64,000 nt of DNA, from the NCBI GenBank assembly GCA_021771035.1, contig JAETPU010000009.1, forward strand, positions 62,001 through 126,000. Reading direction: 5' to 3'. The notes below the pieces were generated by a model. The model was not told the DNA's origin. It made no database searches and was given only the letters and a program-made list of their open reading frames with translations. Positions 17,029 to 57,416 of the stretch are shown in pieces; position 1 is the first letter of the stretch, and each line of letters starts with the position of its first letter. Both the position numbers and the translations under genes were made by a program. The DNA is from Marvinbryantia formatexigens (GTDB lineage: Bacteria; Bacillota; Clostridia; Oscillospirales; Ruminococcaceae).

Positions 17029-17574
17029 TTATTCCTCCATCTGCCGGCCTAAAAACAGAGCCGCCGCCTGCATCAGCTTGGAATTGTCCGCGGCGTCCTC
17101 GGAAGGGGAATCCCCGTCCATCATCAGGATAGCCCCGCATACATCCCCGGCTGCCAGAATCGGCATTGCCGCCAGCGCGTAGCGGTCCACACCCTCCACA
17201 GGCTGCATCCCCGGGACAGAGTTCTGGCGATCCCGCAGATAGTTTTTGCGTTTCTCCATGAGATCCTCCAATTCCGGGGCAATCCGGCGCTCCAGCATCT
17301 CCTTTTTGGGGATGCCCGATACCGCGATGACGTGATCCCGGTCGCACACAACCACCGGGTTCCCGCTCACCTTAAAGAGCACATCCGCGTACTGATGGGA
17401 AAAGGTTCCCAATTCCCCGATGGGGGAATATTTCTTAAAAATGACCTCGCCGTCGCTGTCCGTATAGATTTCCAGGGGATCCCCCTCCCGGATCCGCATG
17501 GTTCTGCGAATCTCCTTTGGGATTACAACACGCCCGAGATCATCGATTCTTCTCACTATTCCAGTTGCCTTCAT
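17029..17574 (-). CDS. spoVT: Stage V sporulation protein T
   Basis: A 181-residue forespore transcription regulator of the AbrB family. The N-terminal swapped-hairpin DNA-binding domain is MKATGIVRRIDDLGRVVIPKEIRRTMRIREGDPLEIY (first 37 residues), almost invariant in the family. The C-terminal GAF-like domain includes NPVVVCDRDHVIAVSGIPKKE. The ATG at 17574 follows GGAGGATG; an upstream in-frame ATG would add eight residues not in the family. In Bacillus spoVT is sigma-G dependent, and a GCATA / AATACTA pair at 17639-17667 fits that. Confidence 0.95.
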   Translation of the reverse strand: MKATGIVRRIDDLGRVVIPKEIRRTMRIREGDPLEIYTDSDGEVIFKKYSPIGELGTFSHQYADVLFKVSGNPVVVCDRDHVIAVSGIPKKEMLERRIAPELEDLMEKRKNYLRDRQNSVPGMQPVEGVDRYALAAMPILAAGDVCGAILMMDGDSPSEDAADNSKLMQAAALFLGRQMEE

Positions 17575-17638
17575 GCAGCCATCCTCCATCAACTTCAAAA
17601 TAAATCGCCGGCGTCCCAGTGGCCGTCCGCTTTATTTC

Positions 17639-17667
17639 TAGTATTTACCCGGTTGGAAATTTTATGC
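17639..17667 (-). promoter_or_regulatory. Candidate sigma-G promoter of spoVT
   Basis: On the minus strand GCATA (17663-17667) matches the sigma-G -35 (GMATR). After 17 bp, AATACTA (17639-17645) matches six of seven positions of the -10 CATWMTA. It lies 65 bp before the spoVT start. Confidence 0.5.
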
Positions 17668-30961: not shown

Positions 30962-31678
30962 TTACTGATCCGCCTCTTTTTTTCTGCGTTTTTTGTTTTT
31001 GAACCGTTCCTTGGGCACAATATGATAGTCCGCACTGGGGTTGGCAGTCATCAGGAACACCTCCTTGAGATCCCACCCCTCCCGTTCCAGCACATTTTTC
31101 AGCCATTCCTCCCGCAGGTTGTAGGCCTTCAGGGCCGGATAGATCACCGCGCCGTCGCTGATAACGGTGACCTGGGGAAAATCCTGGGCGGGCTCATTGG
31201 GAAGCCCCAGCACCTCAGGGGTGACATTCCGGTTGCTGTAGCGCTGGTACACGCTGACCTTGCCTGTGGTCTCCACAATGGCAAAGGCCACCTCCCGTAC
31301 GTCGAATACATTGGAAATGCGCAGCTGCTCCAGAAGGTCGTCGATAGAAAACCGTAAATTGCGCAGCTCCTGCTGGTCGATGACGCCGTCCCGGATGACC
31401 ACCCGCGGCGTCCCTGAGATGATTTTGCGCGCGGCCTTGCTCTTGAGGGAGAGCGCCGAGGCCATCACCTCAAAGGTCACCAGGGTTAAAATCGGCAGCA
31501 GGCCCGCCACCAGGGGAATGTTGGTATCCTCGATGGGCAGGGTGGCAATATTGGAAATTAGAATGGTAATCACGAATTCCGAAGGCTGCAGCTCCCCTAT
31601 CTGGCGCTTCCCCATAATCCGCAGTGAAAACACGATGATTATGTAGAGCACACAGGTTCTCAGAAATACGACTGCCAT
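30962..31678 (-). CDS. DUF421 (YetF-like) membrane protein
   Basis: A 238-residue protein with three N-terminal membrane helices (VVFLRTCVLYIIIVFSLRIMG; FVITILISNIATLP; LVAGLLPILTLVTFEVMAS) followed by the soluble DUF421 domain (GTPRVVIRDGVIDQQELRNLRFSIDDLLEQLR, ISDGAVIYPAL). Relatives such as YetF and 2Duf are spore inner-membrane proteins linked to heat resistance and germination behaviour. The ATG at 31678 is chosen because AGGAGG is 7 bp away; an ATG two codons earlier would be too close. Divergent from a germinant-receptor operon, with a possible forespore promoter between them. Confidence 0.88.
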   Translation of the reverse strand: MAVVFLRTCVLYIIIVFSLRIMGKRQIGELQPSEFVITILISNIATLPIEDTNIPLVAGLLPILTLVTFEVMASALSLKSKAARKIISGTPRVVIRDGVIDQQELRNLRFSIDDLLEQLRISNVFDVREVAFAIVETTGKVSVYQRYSNRNVTPEVLGLPNEPAQDFPQVTVISDGAVIYPALKAYNLREEWLKNVLEREGWDLKEVFLMTANPSADYHIVPKERFKNKKRRKKEADQ

Positions 31679-31711
31679 GCCCATTCCTCCTGTCTTTCAA
31701 AATTCTGTCCT

Positions 31712-31741
31712 TAGCTTTCCCGACGGCAGCTCGGGATATAC
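31712..31741 (-). promoter_or_regulatory. Candidate forespore (sigma-F/G) promoter of the DUF421 gene
   Basis: GTATA (31737-31741) matches the sigma-F -35 GYWTA. 15 bp later GGGAAAGCTA (31712-31721) matches the -10 GGnRAnAnTR except one base. Confidence 0.35.
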
Positions 31742-31780
31742 CGCCGGCGCCAACAATTTTTCCCGGGATTGCCAGCTTTT

Positions 31781-31810
31781 GAATGATTGCGCCGCAGTTG
31801 GGGAAAGGTA
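31781..31810 (+). promoter_or_regulatory. Candidate forespore promoter of the ger operon
   Basis: GAATG (31781-31785) fits the sigma-G -35 GMATR. 15 bp later GGGAAAGGTA (31801-31810) resembles the -10 and is nearly identical to the GGGAAAGCTA of the divergent gene. Confidence 0.35.
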
Positions 31811-31954
31811 AGTTTAGCCTCTGAGAAAATGGGGCGGCTTTTGCCTCGGGGACTCAGCCATGGCGCGTAACGGAACTCTGTCTGCGCGCGCCAGCCGGCC
31901 GCCCTGCGGCAGATACCGCCTGTGAACCAAGAAAAACGGGAAGGTGAGTGGGCA

Positions 31955-33517
31955 ATGTTTCATTGGATACAAGAGCGCTTGGCCTATGCAAAGAATAAAG
32001 CGTACCAGCCGCCCCAGCAGGACGATCCCCAGGAGCGCTTGTCGGCGGATTTATCCCAGACGATGATTACCCTGAGAAAAAAGATCTCCAATTCCTCGGA
32101 TCTGCTCAACCGGGAGATTCGGGTGGGTTCCCAGACCGTGCAGCTGGTGATGTGCGAGGGGATGTTCGATCTGCAGACCATGACGGAAATTCTTCTGGAA
32201 CCCCTGACAACTTTGGAGCTAAGCGAGGATTCCCCTGAGGCCTTAGTCTCCTGGATACGTTCCAACGCCGTTCTGGCAGCGGATCAAAAGGAGATTTATA
32301 CCTATTCCGAGGTCTTTCAGTTTATTATGTCCGGGTTTATTGTCATCCTCATAGACGGAATCCCCTTCGGCTTTTCCCTGGGCATCCAGGGGTTCCAGTT
32401 CCGCAGTGTCTCCGAACCGTCCTCCGAGGTCAACGAGCGGGGCAGCCGGGAGGGCTTTGTGGAGCCGCTTCGGATTAACCTGACCATGATCCGCCGCAGG
32501 ATGAAATCGGAAAAGCTCAAGTTTGAATTGATGACCATGGGCACCAAGAGCCGCACCGACGTATGCCTGATATACCTGACGGACGCCGTCTCCGAAACCA
32601 TGCTCAATGAAATCCGCTCCCGCCTGAGCCGGGTAAAGCTGGACGTGATTCTAGATTCCGGGTACCTGCAGCCCTTTCTGGATAAAAAGCCCTTTTCCCT
32701 GTTCTCCGGTGTGGGAACCACCGAGCGCCCGGACACCATGTGCGCCAAAATCAGCGAGGGCCGGGTGGGCATCCTGGTGGACGGCACCCCCTTTGCGCTG
32801 ATTGTGCCTTTTTTGTTTACGGAACACTTTCAAAGCCTGGACGATTACACCCACCGCGCCTACTACGCCACCTTTATCCGGTGCTTAAAGTATATTTCCT
32901 TCTTTTTCACCATTCTCATCCCGGGAATCTATGTGGCGGTGGCCAGCTTTCATCCGGAGCTCTTTCCGGAGGCCCTGCTATTCAATATCGCCGCCTCGGA
33001 GGAATCCACCCCCTTTCCCATTGTGGTGGAGGCGCTCATCATCCACCTGATTTTTGAAATCATGCGGGAGGCCGGACTGCGGCTGCCAAGGCCGGTGGGC
33101 CATGCCGTAAGCATTGTAGGCGCCATTGTCATCGGGGACGCCGCCGTAACCGCGGGGCTCATCGGCGCGCCCATGGTGATGGTAGTGGCCCTCACCGCCA
33201 TCAGCTCCTTCGTGGTGCCCAGCCTGTATGAGCCGGTGAGCATCCTGCGTATCGTATTCATCCTCCTGGGCGGCACCTTCGGCATCTATGGCATCACCCT
33301 GGCGCTGGCTTTGGTCTTTTTAAACCTGGCGTCCGTGAACGTATACGGTATCCCGGTGACCTCCCCGGCCGCCCCCTTCCGCATCTTCGAATGGCGGGAC
33401 GCCTTTATCCGGGTGAACTGGAGGCGTCTGGGCCGGGAAAACCTGCGGGTTCAACATTTGCCGGGCTCTGAGCTGGACGAAGCCGATGAGAGCCCCAATG
33501 AGGGAGGAAACCGCTGA
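31955..33517 (+). CDS. Spore germination protein, GerA family (A subunit)
   Basis: A 520-residue germinant-receptor A subunit. The soluble N-terminal part includes SDLLNREIRVGSQTVQLVMCEGM and the ILIDGIPFGFSLGIQGFQFRSVSEPSSE region corresponding to the family's SRSVSEPxxE motif, followed by REGFVEPLRINLTMIRRRMKSEKL. Several membrane helices occupy the C-terminal half (for example YISFFFTILIPGIYVAVASFHPELFP and the AVSIVGAIVIGDAAVTAGLI block). The ATG at 31955 has AAGGTGAG upstream. It overlaps the B subunit in a TGATG arrangement. Acts in the inner spore membrane; germinant unknown. Confidence 0.95.
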   Translation: MFHWIQERLAYAKNKAYQPPQQDDPQERLSADLSQTMITLRKKISNSSDLLNREIRVGSQTVQLVMCEGMFDLQTMTEILLEPLTTLELSEDSPEALVSWIRSNAVLAADQKEIYTYSEVFQFIMSGFIVILIDGIPFGFSLGIQGFQFRSVSEPSSEVNERGSREGFVEPLRINLTMIRRRMKSEKLKFELMTMGTKSRTDVCLIYLTDAVSETMLNEIRSRLSRVKLDVILDSGYLQPFLDKKPFSLFSGVGTTERPDTMCAKISEGRVGILVDGTPFALIVPFLFTEHFQSLDDYTHRAYYATFIRCLKYISFFFTILIPGIYVAVASFHPELFPEALLFNIAASEESTPFPIVVEALIIHLIFEIMREAGLRLPRPVGHAVSIVGAIVIGDAAVTAGLIGAPMVMVVALTAISSFVVPSLYEPVSILRIVFILLGGTFGIYGITLALALVFLNLASVNVYGIPVTSPAAPFRIFEWRDAFIRVNWRRLGRENLRVQHLPGSELDEADESPNEGGNR

Positions 33518-34614
33518 TGACCTCACAAAAATCCTATATCGATACCTTTGAGATGATTCTCCTGCTGTTTATTGTCCGCATTTTTGCCGTCCTCACCTTC
33601 TCCGCCAAGGGCGGCGCGGTGAACGGCCTGGACGAGATGCTGGTGCTTCTGGGCACCTTTGCCGTATCCTTTCTCCTGATTATCCCCCTGTATTTTCTCA
33701 TCAAGCTGTATCCGGGCAAGGACATTGTGGACTGTACCGCCGTAGGGCTGGGCCAGCCCGCCGCCAAGGTGACCGCCGCGCTGCTGTGGCTCTTCTGCAT
33801 TTATACCGCGGCCAGCACCAGCAGCACCTTTGAATTCTTCATCACCACGGCGGTGTACCCGAAAAATTCCCACTGGATCATTCTGATCACCTTTTTGGCG
33901 GCCTGCCTGTATGCCAGTACACGGGGAATCGAGCCCATTGCAAGAGTTGGAATCTATATCTTTTTCGCCAGTATGCTCTCCTATTTCTTTATCCTTTTGG
34001 CACTGGCTCCCCAGGTCCGCCTTTCCAATTTTACGCCCCTGCTCTCCTCCTCCACAAAGGTGCTGGGAGATTCCGTCTTTTATTCCATGGGGCTGCGGGT
34101 GGACACCATCCTGTTTTTGATGCTCATTCCCCAGGTGAAGGGCCGCCTGACCAGGGCCTATGTGAAGGTGGGCGTGCTGGCGCTGGTGGTGTTCGAATTG
34201 CTCACCTTTATCACGGTGGGCTCCCTTGGCAACTACCTTTCCACACAGATTTTCCCCTATTACTCCGCAGCCAGCGTAGCGGAAGTCTCCTTTTTTCAGC
34301 GGCTGGACAGCCTGCATATGGCCATCTGGGTGCTGGTGTCCTTCATCCGGGCCTCCCTGTTTCTCCTGGTGGGCTCCTCCTGCCTGAATAAGCTGCTTCC
34401 CCTGCGGCTGCACAAGTTTTCCCCCTGGATTACCACCGGGGCCACCCTGGTTTTATCCCTCATTATTTCCCATAATGTGCGCATCCTGTATGCCACTATC
34501 AATTTCTGGGTCACTGTGGTTCCGGTGATGGTACTGGGAACCGTTCTGCCGGTGGTTCTCGTCATCATCGGCGCAGTCCGAAAGCACAAGGAGGCATCCC
34601 AATGCGCATCTTAA
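33517..34614 (+). CDS. Spore germination permease, GerB family (B subunit)
   Basis: A 365-residue membrane protein of the amino-acid/polyamine/organocation superfamily with about ten helices, the germinant-receptor B subunit that probably holds the germinant pocket. It starts TSQKSYIDTFEMILLLFIVRIFAVLTFSAKG, keeps the family's PLYFLIKLYPGKDIVD segment and shows helix-breaking glycines throughout. Start overlaps the A subunit stop and its end overlaps the C subunit start by 13 bp, so all three are translationally coupled. Confidence 0.94.
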   Translation: MTSQKSYIDTFEMILLLFIVRIFAVLTFSAKGGAVNGLDEMLVLLGTFAVSFLLIIPLYFLIKLYPGKDIVDCTAVGLGQPAAKVTAALLWLFCIYTAASTSSTFEFFITTAVYPKNSHWIILITFLAACLYASTRGIEPIARVGIYIFFASMLSYFFILLALAPQVRLSNFTPLLSSSTKVLGDSVFYSMGLRVDTILFLMLIPQVKGRLTRAYVKVGVLALVVFELLTFITVGSLGNYLSTQIFPYYSAASVAEVSFFQRLDSLHMAIWVLVSFIRASLFLLVGSSCLNKLLPLRLHKFSPWITTGATLVLSLIISHNVRILYATINFWVTVVPVMVLGTVLPVVLVIIGAVRKHKEASQCAS

Positions 34615-35777
34615 AAAAACTGTTCTGCATCACCCTGGCACTGCTGATGCCCATCCTGCTCACCACCGGATGCCTGCATTCCGCCGAGCTCAACGAGCGG
34701 GCGCTGGTGCAGGCCATGGGGATTGACCGCAAGAACGGGATGTATCAAATTACCCTGCAGGTGTTCGATCCCCAGGGCGGAGGCACCACCACAGCCGTGG
34801 ACGCCAGCAAGGTCAACAGCCAGGTGATCCTGGTGGAGGGCCAGACCATCTCCGAGGCATTTCTCAACGCGTCCCTGCAGCAGGGCAAGGAGGTGTTCTA
34901 TGGGCACAACAAGCTGGTGATCATCGGGGAATCCGCCGCCAGGGAGGGCATCAGCGCCATCACAAACTTTCTCAACAGCAATCCGGATTTCCGTCCCAAT
35001 GTGGATATGGCGGTCTGCCAGGGCGACGCCTCCGAGATTGTCTCCGCCCAGATAAGCCAGGGCCTGCTCCCGGCGCTGGAAATCCAGATGACCTTAGCCA
35101 ACGAGGAAAAAAACGGACAGATCTTTCGGGGACGGTTTTATCAGGTGATGCAGTCCCTGAGCTCTCCGGACCGGGACCCGTGTATGCCATTTGTGGAACT
35201 GTACCAGGATAAGCTGGGGAATTCCACGGTCCGGGTGTCGGGCACAGCCCTGTTTCACGACGAGTTTTTGGTGGGGCAGCTCAACCGTGAGGAGACCAAG
35301 GGCCTGCTGTTTGCCGCCAACAAGATGAAAAAGACCCTCGTCAACGTCCAGGACGATTCCCTGGGACTGGTTTCCCTGGAGGTAATTCGCTCCTCCACCG
35401 GTATCAAGGGAAGCTTCCAATGGGAAGAGGCCCCGGAATTCACCCTGCAAATCCGCCTGAAAAGCCGGGCGCAGGAGGTAAACGGCACCAAGCTCTCCAG
35501 CGTCAACGCCTCCAATGTCAAACAAATTGAAGAGGAGCAGGATGGGCAGATTGCAAAGACCATCGAAAATGCGCTGGAAAAAACGCTGGTGTTTTATGGG
35601 GTGGACCCCATTGGCTTGGAGCGCTACTGTCCGGCCAAAGTGCGCCGGCAGATCCAGGAAAACCGGGAACAGTGGCTGCAGGTGCGCGCACAGTCGCAGT
35701 TTCACGTGACGGTCACCAGTGAAATCGAAAGTTTTGGCCTGCAGAAAGACGGGGATTCGAAAGGAGGCCAGTCATGA
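34602..35777 (+). CDS. Ger(x)C family spore germination lipoprotein (C subunit)
   Basis: A 391-residue lipoprotein, third component of the receptor. The signal peptide KKLFCITLALLMPILLTTGC ends in a lipobox with the lipidated Cys at residue 23. The mature start HSAELNERALVQAMGIDR and later VFYGHNKLVIIGESAAREGI are Ger(x)C consensus. Coupled to gerB and overlapping the next gene by 4 bp. It is expected on the outer face of the inner spore membrane. Confidence 0.95.
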   Translation: MRILKKLFCITLALLMPILLTTGCLHSAELNERALVQAMGIDRKNGMYQITLQVFDPQGGGTTTAVDASKVNSQVILVEGQTISEAFLNASLQQGKEVFYGHNKLVIIGESAAREGISAITNFLNSNPDFRPNVDMAVCQGDASEIVSAQISQGLLPALEIQMTLANEEKNGQIFRGRFYQVMQSLSSPDRDPCMPFVELYQDKLGNSTVRVSGTALFHDEFLVGQLNREETKGLLFAANKMKKTLVNVQDDSLGLVSLEVIRSSTGIKGSFQWEEAPEFTLQIRLKSRAQEVNGTKLSSVNASNVKQIEEEQDGQIAKTIENALEKTLVFYGVDPIGLERYCPAKVRRQIQENREQWLQVRAQSQFHVTVTSEIESFGLQKDGDSKGGQS

Positions 35778-36154
35778 AACGGGTTTTAATTGCCACCGGG
35801 ATCCTTCTGGCTATCATTTCAGTCAGTCTGGGAAGCCTGGTATATATCCATTCCACAATCAGCCGCCTGGAACTTCAGATTACCGAAATTGAGGAGGAGG
35901 TTCTCCGGGAGGATTATCAGGCCGCCCAGGCGCACACCACAGAGCTGGTGACCCACTGGCACCAGGTAGAGCCGATTCTGGTGCGTCTGGTGCGCCATTC
36001 CGCTATCGACGAGACGACCGGGGATCTGGCAAAGCTGCCCTACCTGCTGGAATATGAGCACTACGGGGAATTTATGTCGGAGCTCTCCCGGGCCAAGATG
36101 ATTATCCTGCGCATCTGGGAGGACGAAGTGCCCAATCTCAAGAATATTCTATAG
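35774..36154 (+). CDS. DUF4363 family small membrane-anchored protein
   Basis: A 126-residue protein with one N-terminal membrane helix (VLIATGILLAIISVSLGSLVYIHS, residues 4-27) and a helical outside domain with coiled-coil character (ISRLELQITEIEEEVLREDYQAAQAHTTELVTHWHQVEPIL). It fits DUF4363, often linked to ger operons in clostridia. The start overlaps the gerC stop (ATGA), with an AAGGAGG just upstream inside gerC. A germination accessory role is inference from position. Confidence 0.85.
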   Translation: MKRVLIATGILLAIISVSLGSLVYIHSTISRLELQITEIEEEVLREDYQAAQAHTTELVTHWHQVEPILVRLVRHSAIDETTGDLAKLPYLLEYEHYGEFMSELSRAKMIILRIWEDEVPNLKNIL

Positions 36155-56943: not shown

Positions 56944-56972
56944 GTATGGTTTTTGCCGCCCGGGACATACTA
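56944..56972 (+). promoter_or_regulatory. Candidate sigma-G promoter of the helical-bundle gene
   Basis: CATACTA (56966-56972) is a perfect match to the sigma-G/F -10 CATWMTA. GTATG (56944-56948) 17 bp upstream fits the -35 GMATR in four of five positions. It ends 18 bp before the start codon. Confidence 0.5.
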
Positions 56973-56990
56973 AGCCTGAGGTGATGAATC

Positions 56991-57416
56991 ATGCGCGATA
57001 TCGAATTGCTCCAGTATATCCACGAAACCGCCGCCATGGGAATCGAAGGGCTTCAGGACGTCTCGGGCCGGATTCACGACAGCGGCCTGATGAAGTGCGT
57101 CCAGTCCCAAATACGGGAATACCAGTCCATTGCCATCGAAGCGGCAAAGCTTCTTAAATCCATGGGGGAAACCCCCAAGGAACCCAGCGGGATGGCCCGT
57201 ATGTCCGCCGGGATGATGTCCGCCATGCAGACCATGACGGACTCCTCCGCCTCCAAAATTTCCGAATTGGTCATCAACGGCAATCACATGGGAATTACCA
57301 AGGGGCTCAAGCATCTGCACGACTATGCCGGGGACGATGACCGAATCCGGCGCCTGGCCGAAAAGCTGCTGGCCACTGAGCAGGCCAATGTGGAGCAGAT
57401 GAAACCGTTTTTGTAA
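56991..57416 (+). CDS. Small four-helix-bundle protein (DUF2383/ferritin-like)
   Basis: A 141-residue, probably all-helical protein. Four amphipathic segments are visible (ELLQYIHETAAMGIEGLQDV; CVQSQIREYQSIAIEAAKLL; SASKISELVINGNHMGITKG; IRRLAEKLLATEQANVEQMK), with Glu and His spaced as in ferritin-like bundles (Y-I-H-E, R-E-Y, N-H, T-E-Q). It resembles DUF2383-like proteins; a metal site is inference. GAGGTGATG precedes the ATG. The promoter suggests forespore expression, so a spore-associated role is plausible. No terminator was seen. Confidence 0.75.
   Translation: MRDIELLQYIHETAAMGIEGLQDVSGRIHDSGLMKCVQSQIREYQSIAIEAAKLLKSMGETPKEPSGMARMSAGMMSAMQTMTDSSASKISELVINGNHMGITKGLKHLHDYAGDDDRIRRLAEKLLATEQANVEQMKPFL

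Follow-up and report, generated by a model that had tools for sequence, protein, structure and literature searches.

In Bacillus subtilis, mutants lacking the DUF421 genes yetF or ydfS show reduced resistance to wet heat and chemicals and slower receptor-dependent germination; in the passages of PMC10126465 on which this summary draws, yetF is the second gene after lplD with a sigF promoter of its own, and ydfS is a single gene. Double loss of YetF and YrbG causes spontaneous germination early in sporulation, in which the normal receptors are described as not involved (PMC12548441, in part). According to the same portions of that paper, B. subtilis YetF-GFP forms 5-7 spots, which outnumber germinosomes and lie at positions inconsistent with the germinosome, YdfS-GFP of B. 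megaterium gathers in one focus of indeterminate relation to the germinosome, and a stabilising role in germinosomes is termed not inconceivable. In Clostridium difficile a sigG mutant shows lowered expression of the DUF421 operon CD1789-CD1788, and the excerpts of PMC3789822 cited here report that no gerA-type operon was found in this genome and that its sigF and sigG patterns are closely alike and also resemble those of B. subtilis. PMC3789822 assigns the CD1789-CD1788 promoter to sigG, and PMC7438776 describes it as sigF-like (both in part). CD1788 peptides were identified in cell and spore proteomics and the product was termed a membrane protein (PMC6174930, in part).

Here we describe a DUF421 gene that shares a 270-bp divergent promoter region with a germinant receptor operon, in a 64,000-nucleotide stretch of Marvinbryantia formatexigens DNA (the window). 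We consider it probable, at about 0.72, that this is a forespore locus in which a Ger receptor and a YetF-type membrane module are expressed from two back-to-back sigF/sigG-type promoters.

Organisation of the locus

30962..31684, minus strand: DUF421 (YetF-type) protein, 240 aa (PF04239, 122.4 bits, cut-off 23.6)
31685..31954, both directions: shared divergent promoter region, 270 bp (read directly)
31712..31741, minus strand: candidate sigF/sigG promoter of DUF421, GTATA-N15-GGGAAAGCTA (13.5-15.7 bits, p 0.005-0.016)
31781..31810, plus strand: candidate sigF/sigG promoter of ger, GAATG-N15-GGGAAAGGTA (7.5-10.1 bits, p 0.058-0.094)
31955..33517, plus strand: gerA, germinant receptor A subunit (PF03323, 543 bits)
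33517..34614, plus strand: gerB, spore permease-type B subunit (PF03845, 85.4 bits)
34602..35777, plus strand: gerC, C subunit (PF25198 and PF05504; TIGR02887 exceeds its cut-off)
35774..36154, plus strand: DUF4363 gene, fourth in the ger run (PF14276, 73.6 bits, cut-off 27.5)

The DUF421 gene, which starts with the minus-strand ATG at 31684, is the single PF04239 match in the genome. A profile built from 46 DUF421 relatives matches the YetF structure PDB 3c6f (E 4.8e-30). Pfam gives DUF421 alone, and the C-terminal DUF1657 domain is absent from this protein. Three candidate membrane helices are predicted in the N-terminus at residues 2-23, 34-47 and 58-81, where the pLDDT blocks reach only ~62-76.

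On the other side of the gap, gerA, gerB and gerC stand in order with overlapping genes, as the A, B and C subunits of one operon, although the NCBIfam GerXA and permease models score the window genes under those models' own cut-offs. The gerA reading frame opens earlier, at GTG 31922; ATG 31955, which GGAAGGTGAG, resembling a ribosome site, precedes, is most likely the start. The gerC product is probably a lipoprotein, judged by a lipobox-like LLTTGC. The gerC stop overlaps the start of the DUF4363 gene by 4 bp, and this is the one PF14276 match in the whole genome.

The genome holds two GerA-domain genes. The second (L275:6149-7558, 469 aa) has no gerB or gerC alongside, and the surrounding 13 kb that was fetched gave no match to GerB, GerC, DUF421 or DUF4363; we presume that it may be a SpoVAF-like orphan. 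With no GerB or GerC near that gene, the window operon looks to be the only one of the GerA loci found that encodes a full receptor.

Candidate promoters in the divergent gap

An earlier note on this DNA had claimed a GGGAAAG(C/G)TA box on each side of the gap, with a -35-like GTATA or GAATG at 15 bp, and both are present exactly as claimed when the sequence is read directly. On the minus strand GTATA (31741-31737) is followed after 15 bp by GGGAAAGCTA (31721-31712), 27 bp from the DUF421 ATG. On the plus strand GAATG (31781-31785) is followed after 15 bp by GGGAAAGGTA (31801-31810), 144 bp from the gerA ATG. The listing of sigma-70-like sites contains none within 31685-31954. The bare box GGGAAAGSTA occurs twice in the 64 kb against 0.30 expected, and 5 of 100 shuffles reach 2. 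The combined pattern GNATR-N15-GGGAAAGSTA occurs twice in the window and in none of 100 shuffles; its only two occurrences in the 3.27-Mb genome are both in the gap (one for the reversed-pattern control), a rarity that overstates the case because the pattern was written post hoc, with the sites already seen.

As an independent test, a motif model that had originally included the window was re-estimated from 182 other loci. The DUF421 site scored 13.5 bits and ranked 20th among 127,932 positions (p 0.016), and the ger site scored 7.5 bits and ranked 172nd (p 0.094); a ger-side model gave the latter 10.1 bits (rank 114, p 0.058). With window-free models built from random starts, the DUF421 site reached 15.7 bits (p 0.005) and the ger site 8.4 bits (p 0.059). 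The DUF421 site is thus a credible match to a sigF/sigG-type motif near the start, and the window ger site by itself is near chance. The ger site is the top plus-strand site in the gap (the runner-up has 4.3 bits) and lies 141 bases from the start, against a median of 31, by the same measure, for relatives' ger sites of at least 12 bits. If it is used, the ger leader would be ~140 bases long (31811-31954), exceeding most relatives'.

A forespore-type motif upstream of DUF421 and ger genes

A two-block motif search with no preset pattern was run on the upstream regions of 183 DUF421 genes. It returned GnATAat, N13-14, nnnAtAaTA (mixture weight 0.89), which we take to be the forespore sigma pattern. 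Four of four seeds regained this motif from random starts with the window left out; a window-free run with 10 starts became stuck in a poor optimum, and more starts regained the motif. Scores of at least 12 bits were found in 120 of 183 held-out DUF421 upstream regions, in folds initialised from the full model; dinucleotide shuffles reached this score in 22/915 cases and the starts of other genes in 35/808. Strict random-start folds gave 106/183, compared with 27/915 mononucleotide shuffles, although one fold in five did not find the motif (poor optimum, 10 starts); close relatives were split across folds, and the 183 cases are not independent. As to conservation of the boxes in relatives, on which the earlier note had staked its reading, the looser motif is conserved, whereas the exact letters GGGAAAG are not the relatives' consensus.

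The DUF421-trained model also recognised the ger side, where 50 of 101 regions reached at least 10 bits with the DUF421 site masked and some regions containing coding sequence; ~5% of shuffled sequences did so, and the opposite strand gave 9 of 101. The median distance from site to start, for sites of at least 12 bits, was 28 bases for DUF421 and 31 bases for ger. The first motif found de novo on the ger side was the DUF421 promoter read in reverse, and that site was then masked; the next two were coding motifs, because some gerA starts had been set too late. The ger test therefore relies on the DUF421-trained model.

For SASP genes, the de novo motif was a ribosome site, and they were kept solely as a control. 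The DUF421-trained motif recognised their promoters at 12 bits or above in 14 of 24, against 6.5% of mononucleotide shuffles (30 loci were fetched, and the remaining 6 had no SASP pattern match). In 16 of these 24 upstream regions (from L234-L263) the best match to the -35 element begins with T, where DUF421 and ger have G; this difference may separate sigG from sigF use in the order.

The top motif site of the window (GCATA...AAATACTA, 23.6 bits) precedes a spoVT-like gene at 17029-17667 on the minus strand (TIGR02851 217 bits, under the cut-off of 235.9; PF15714 126.7 bits, over the cut-off). Together with a C. difficile passage in the cited part of PMC7438776, this site serves as an unplanned positive control. 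At 56944-57416 another strong forespore-type site (GTATG...GGGACATACTAAG) directly precedes a possible uncharacterised spore gene, whose 141-aa product matches DUF2383 below threshold.

Linkage of DUF421 and ger in the family

DUF421 homologs are present in 132 and GerA in 133 of 148 genomes of the taxonomic family; 130 genomes have both, 13 neither, 2 DUF421 only and 3 GerA only. Co-occurrence of SASP and GerA in the family genomes is at least as tight, so that the co-occurrence of DUF421 and GerA can reflect sporulation generally.

The adjacency noted earlier in this one genome recurs in related ones. Among 131 family loci fetched (the window, 120 and a further 10, the weak DUF421 match of G039 being excluded), gerA lies divergently beside DUF421 in 87 and codirectionally in 1 (L166); none is in view in 34, and 9 are cut too short. 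Adjacency is therefore missing in 34 of 122 informative loci. Cultured relatives with the divergent layout include Ruminococcus bicirculans 80/3 (L059) and Hydrogenoanaerobacterium saccharovorans An564 (L050). The 80 named loci comprise 31 divergent, 4 codirectional, 35 with none and 10 uninformative. By DUF421 sequence, 17 of 201 loci duplicate others. We found no mention of DUF421-ger adjacency in the literature searched, which leaves out most subscription journals.

Across 121 loci the commonest neighbour families were GerA (75), DUF4363 (75), GerC (63), GerB (57), an nrdR-like gene (40) and an unnamed family (29); the clustering behind these counts undercounts, and the nrdR-like gene was named by eye from its sequence. 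Retention of this nrdR-like neighbour in 40/121 indicates that plain synteny explains part of the DUF421-ger linkage.

Twenty GerA genes were sampled from 18 family genomes in which adjacency had not been seen and which were chosen for a full-length GerA elsewhere; 17 of these genomes show none in view, and in the remaining one, G118, the contig is short. No DUF421 lay beside any of the other GerA loci fetched from 18 genomes. In a quick tree, 15 of the 20 sampled genes nest among the divergent ones, a placement that fits repeated separation from DUF421. A separate GerA clade with the order A-C-B (L338, L341, L342 and L351, from G115, G033 and G049) is unlinked to DUF421.

DUF4363 as a third partner

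The earlier note overlooked a third partner, DUF4363, which is near-constant beside DUF421. Of the 131 family loci, 127 have it after DUF421, the four exceptions being the window, two contig edges (L142 and L269) and a locus whose DUF421 is a weak match (L272). Among 118 genomes of the class, DUF4363 and GerA are both present in 74 and both absent in 26, with one only in 18; the corresponding numbers for DUF4363 and SASP are 68, 26 and 24. DUF4363 thus tracks GerA and SASP and behaves as a spore gene without need for an adjoining receptor. Its product is likely a spore protein.

The predicted structure of DUF4363 has four helices, the long first helix holding a hydrophobic stretch (pLDDT 92.7). 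Foldseek returned no match to this fold at E <=0.001, and VIA-align matches, with Z up to 13, have scores that helical bundles can reach simply through a similar arrangement; we therefore draw no function from them. The best match of the DUF4363 profile to PDB sequences had E 0.028. No paper on DUF4363 was found in the literature searched, again without most subscription journals.

Rearranged loci and more distant relatives

In four rearranged loci gerA still adjoins DUF421-DUF4363, and a strong site stands before the leading gene. In L064 and L061, DUF421-DUF4363-gerABC forms one operon with a site before DUF421 (16.9 and 19.1 bits), and in L064 there is no comparable site before GerA (4.2 bits). 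In L105 and L166, GerA runs directly into DUF421, with a site before GerA (12.2 and 14.4 bits) and nothing before DUF421 (1.2 and 3.6 bits); gerB-gerC is oriented oppositely in L166, and neither gerB nor gerC was found within view in L105. At a fifth rearranged locus, L095, GerA lies ~1.5 kb upstream and no site exceeds 8 bits.

The window layout is distinct, since its DUF4363 ends the ger operon instead of following DUF421. In L114, from the only other sampled genome of the genus, DUF4363 follows DUF421; this contig ends within gerB, and a further DUF4363 copy is possible there. A search beside the window DUF421 gave no DUF4363 relic (best 3.5 bits), and the two window junctions have no repeat longer than 12 bases in common.

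At the order level DUF421-ger adjacency was seen in 1 of 27 fetched loci, best-scoring only. At the class level it was seen in 0 of 29, the best-scoring non-window DUF4363 matches, with ~0.8 kb upstream of DUF421 in view. DUF421 immediately precedes DUF4363 in all 29. Together with the 34/122 family loci lacking adjacency, this indicates that DUF421-DUF4363 needs no adjoining ger operon. Twenty of the 29 class loci reach 12 bits, a raw count, and AT-rich genomes inflate such scores. DUF421 neighbours on plasmids were viewed for 3 of 174 matching records. Plasmid pBM700 bears ger genes and a YetF homolog (PMC12548441, in part), and its incomplete gene table lists no ger gene closer than 8 kb to that homolog.

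Discussion

Joint expression of DUF421 and ger, as the earlier note suggested, is borne out in part: the family motif on both sides and the recurrent adjacency speak for it, but the window's own ger box is near chance. Co-expression is well supported for the family and partly supported for the window. During sporulation, sigF/sigG-type promoters would drive DUF421 leftwards and gerABC-DUF4363 rightwards, and all products would be expected in the spore inner membrane. There GerABC would be the receptor that senses nutrients, while DUF421, being of the YetF type, would stiffen the membrane and stabilise the proteins in it. DUF4363, a predicted helical bundle tethered through a single N-terminal helix, would be the partner of DUF421. 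The linkage would then match receptor and stabilising module in dose and timing. The likeliest mechanism is that the receptor and the membrane-stabilising module are expressed together in the forespore; a direct complex may also exist. The gene identities, the recurrent linkage and, across the family, the conserved motif on both sides are established by the comparisons. We infer that sigF/sigG transcription occurs in this organism and that the products lie in the membrane; contact between the proteins, and a functional link or physical partnership of DUF421 with the receptor, are likewise inferences.

Chance resemblance of the ger box has to be weighed against this reading. DUF421 alone might be forespore-expressed in the window, with gerABC driven from another site, and the p values of 0.058-0.094 and the distance of the ger site from the start point that way. 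We hold this to be a serious alternative, if on balance doubtful, since the site is the best on the plus strand of the gap (next 4.3 bits), no sigma-70-like site is listed in 31685-31954, the motif stands on half of the relatives' ger sides (50/101) and the exact site pair is unique in the genome. Much the same weight goes to the view that DUF421-DUF4363 and ger, both forespore genes, have been neighbours since the family ancestor and do not cooperate. It would account for the nrdR-like gene, equally a common neighbour (40/121), for the 29 class-wide DUF421-DUF4363 loci without ger in the ~0.8 kb in view and for the many lineages where GerA is apart from DUF421. It sits less well with GerA topping all neighbour families, tied only with DUF4363 (75/121 each), with the four rearranged loci that retain gerA beside DUF421-DUF4363 and a site before the leading gene, or with a DUF4363 that in the window belongs to the ger operon.

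DUF421 could also serve general spore heat resistance only, through membrane stiffness and with no particular link to a receptor. The lost wet-heat and chemical resistance of yetF and ydfS mutants (PMC10126465), the sigG-run DUF421 gene that C. difficile retains without a known gerA-type operon (PMC3789822) and the YetF-GFP positions that differ from the germinosome (PMC12548441; all three in the parts cited) agree with this. We nevertheless regard it as unlikely, for germination triggered by receptor-dependent germinants is slowed in these very mutants (PMC10126465, in part) and the family's ger linkage would be left unexplained. A stronger version of the link, in which DUF421 joins DUF4363 in a single complex of the spore membrane that both binds and tunes the Ger receptor in this family, DUF4363 having been recruited in this lineage as the fourth subunit of the receptor operon, seems to us improbable. 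Were it true, germination across Clostridia would involve a protein family that is widespread but unstudied. A taxonomic family that usually ties a close DUF421 relative to a ger operon offers a genetic handle on the YetF-type effect on germination.

Among described systems, B. subtilis YetF/YdfS (PF04239; PDB 3c6f) shares with the window DUF421 the C-terminal domain and, by prediction, a helical N-terminus and a forespore-type promoter, whereas the window gene shares its promoter region with ger. C. difficile CD1789-CD1788 likewise has a forespore-controlled DUF421 gene, first in a two-gene operon; in that species no gerA-type operon is known from the cited part of PMC3789822. The 2Duf protein of spoVA2mob also links a DUF421 domain to spore membrane genes; it ends in a DUF1657 domain and is carried along with spoVA genes (PMC10126465, in part), whereas the window DUF421 is without DUF1657 and linked to ger. 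The gerABC receptor operons have the same A, B, C subunit order as the window, to which the window adds DUF4363 in fourth place and, transcribed in the opposite direction, a DUF421 gene.
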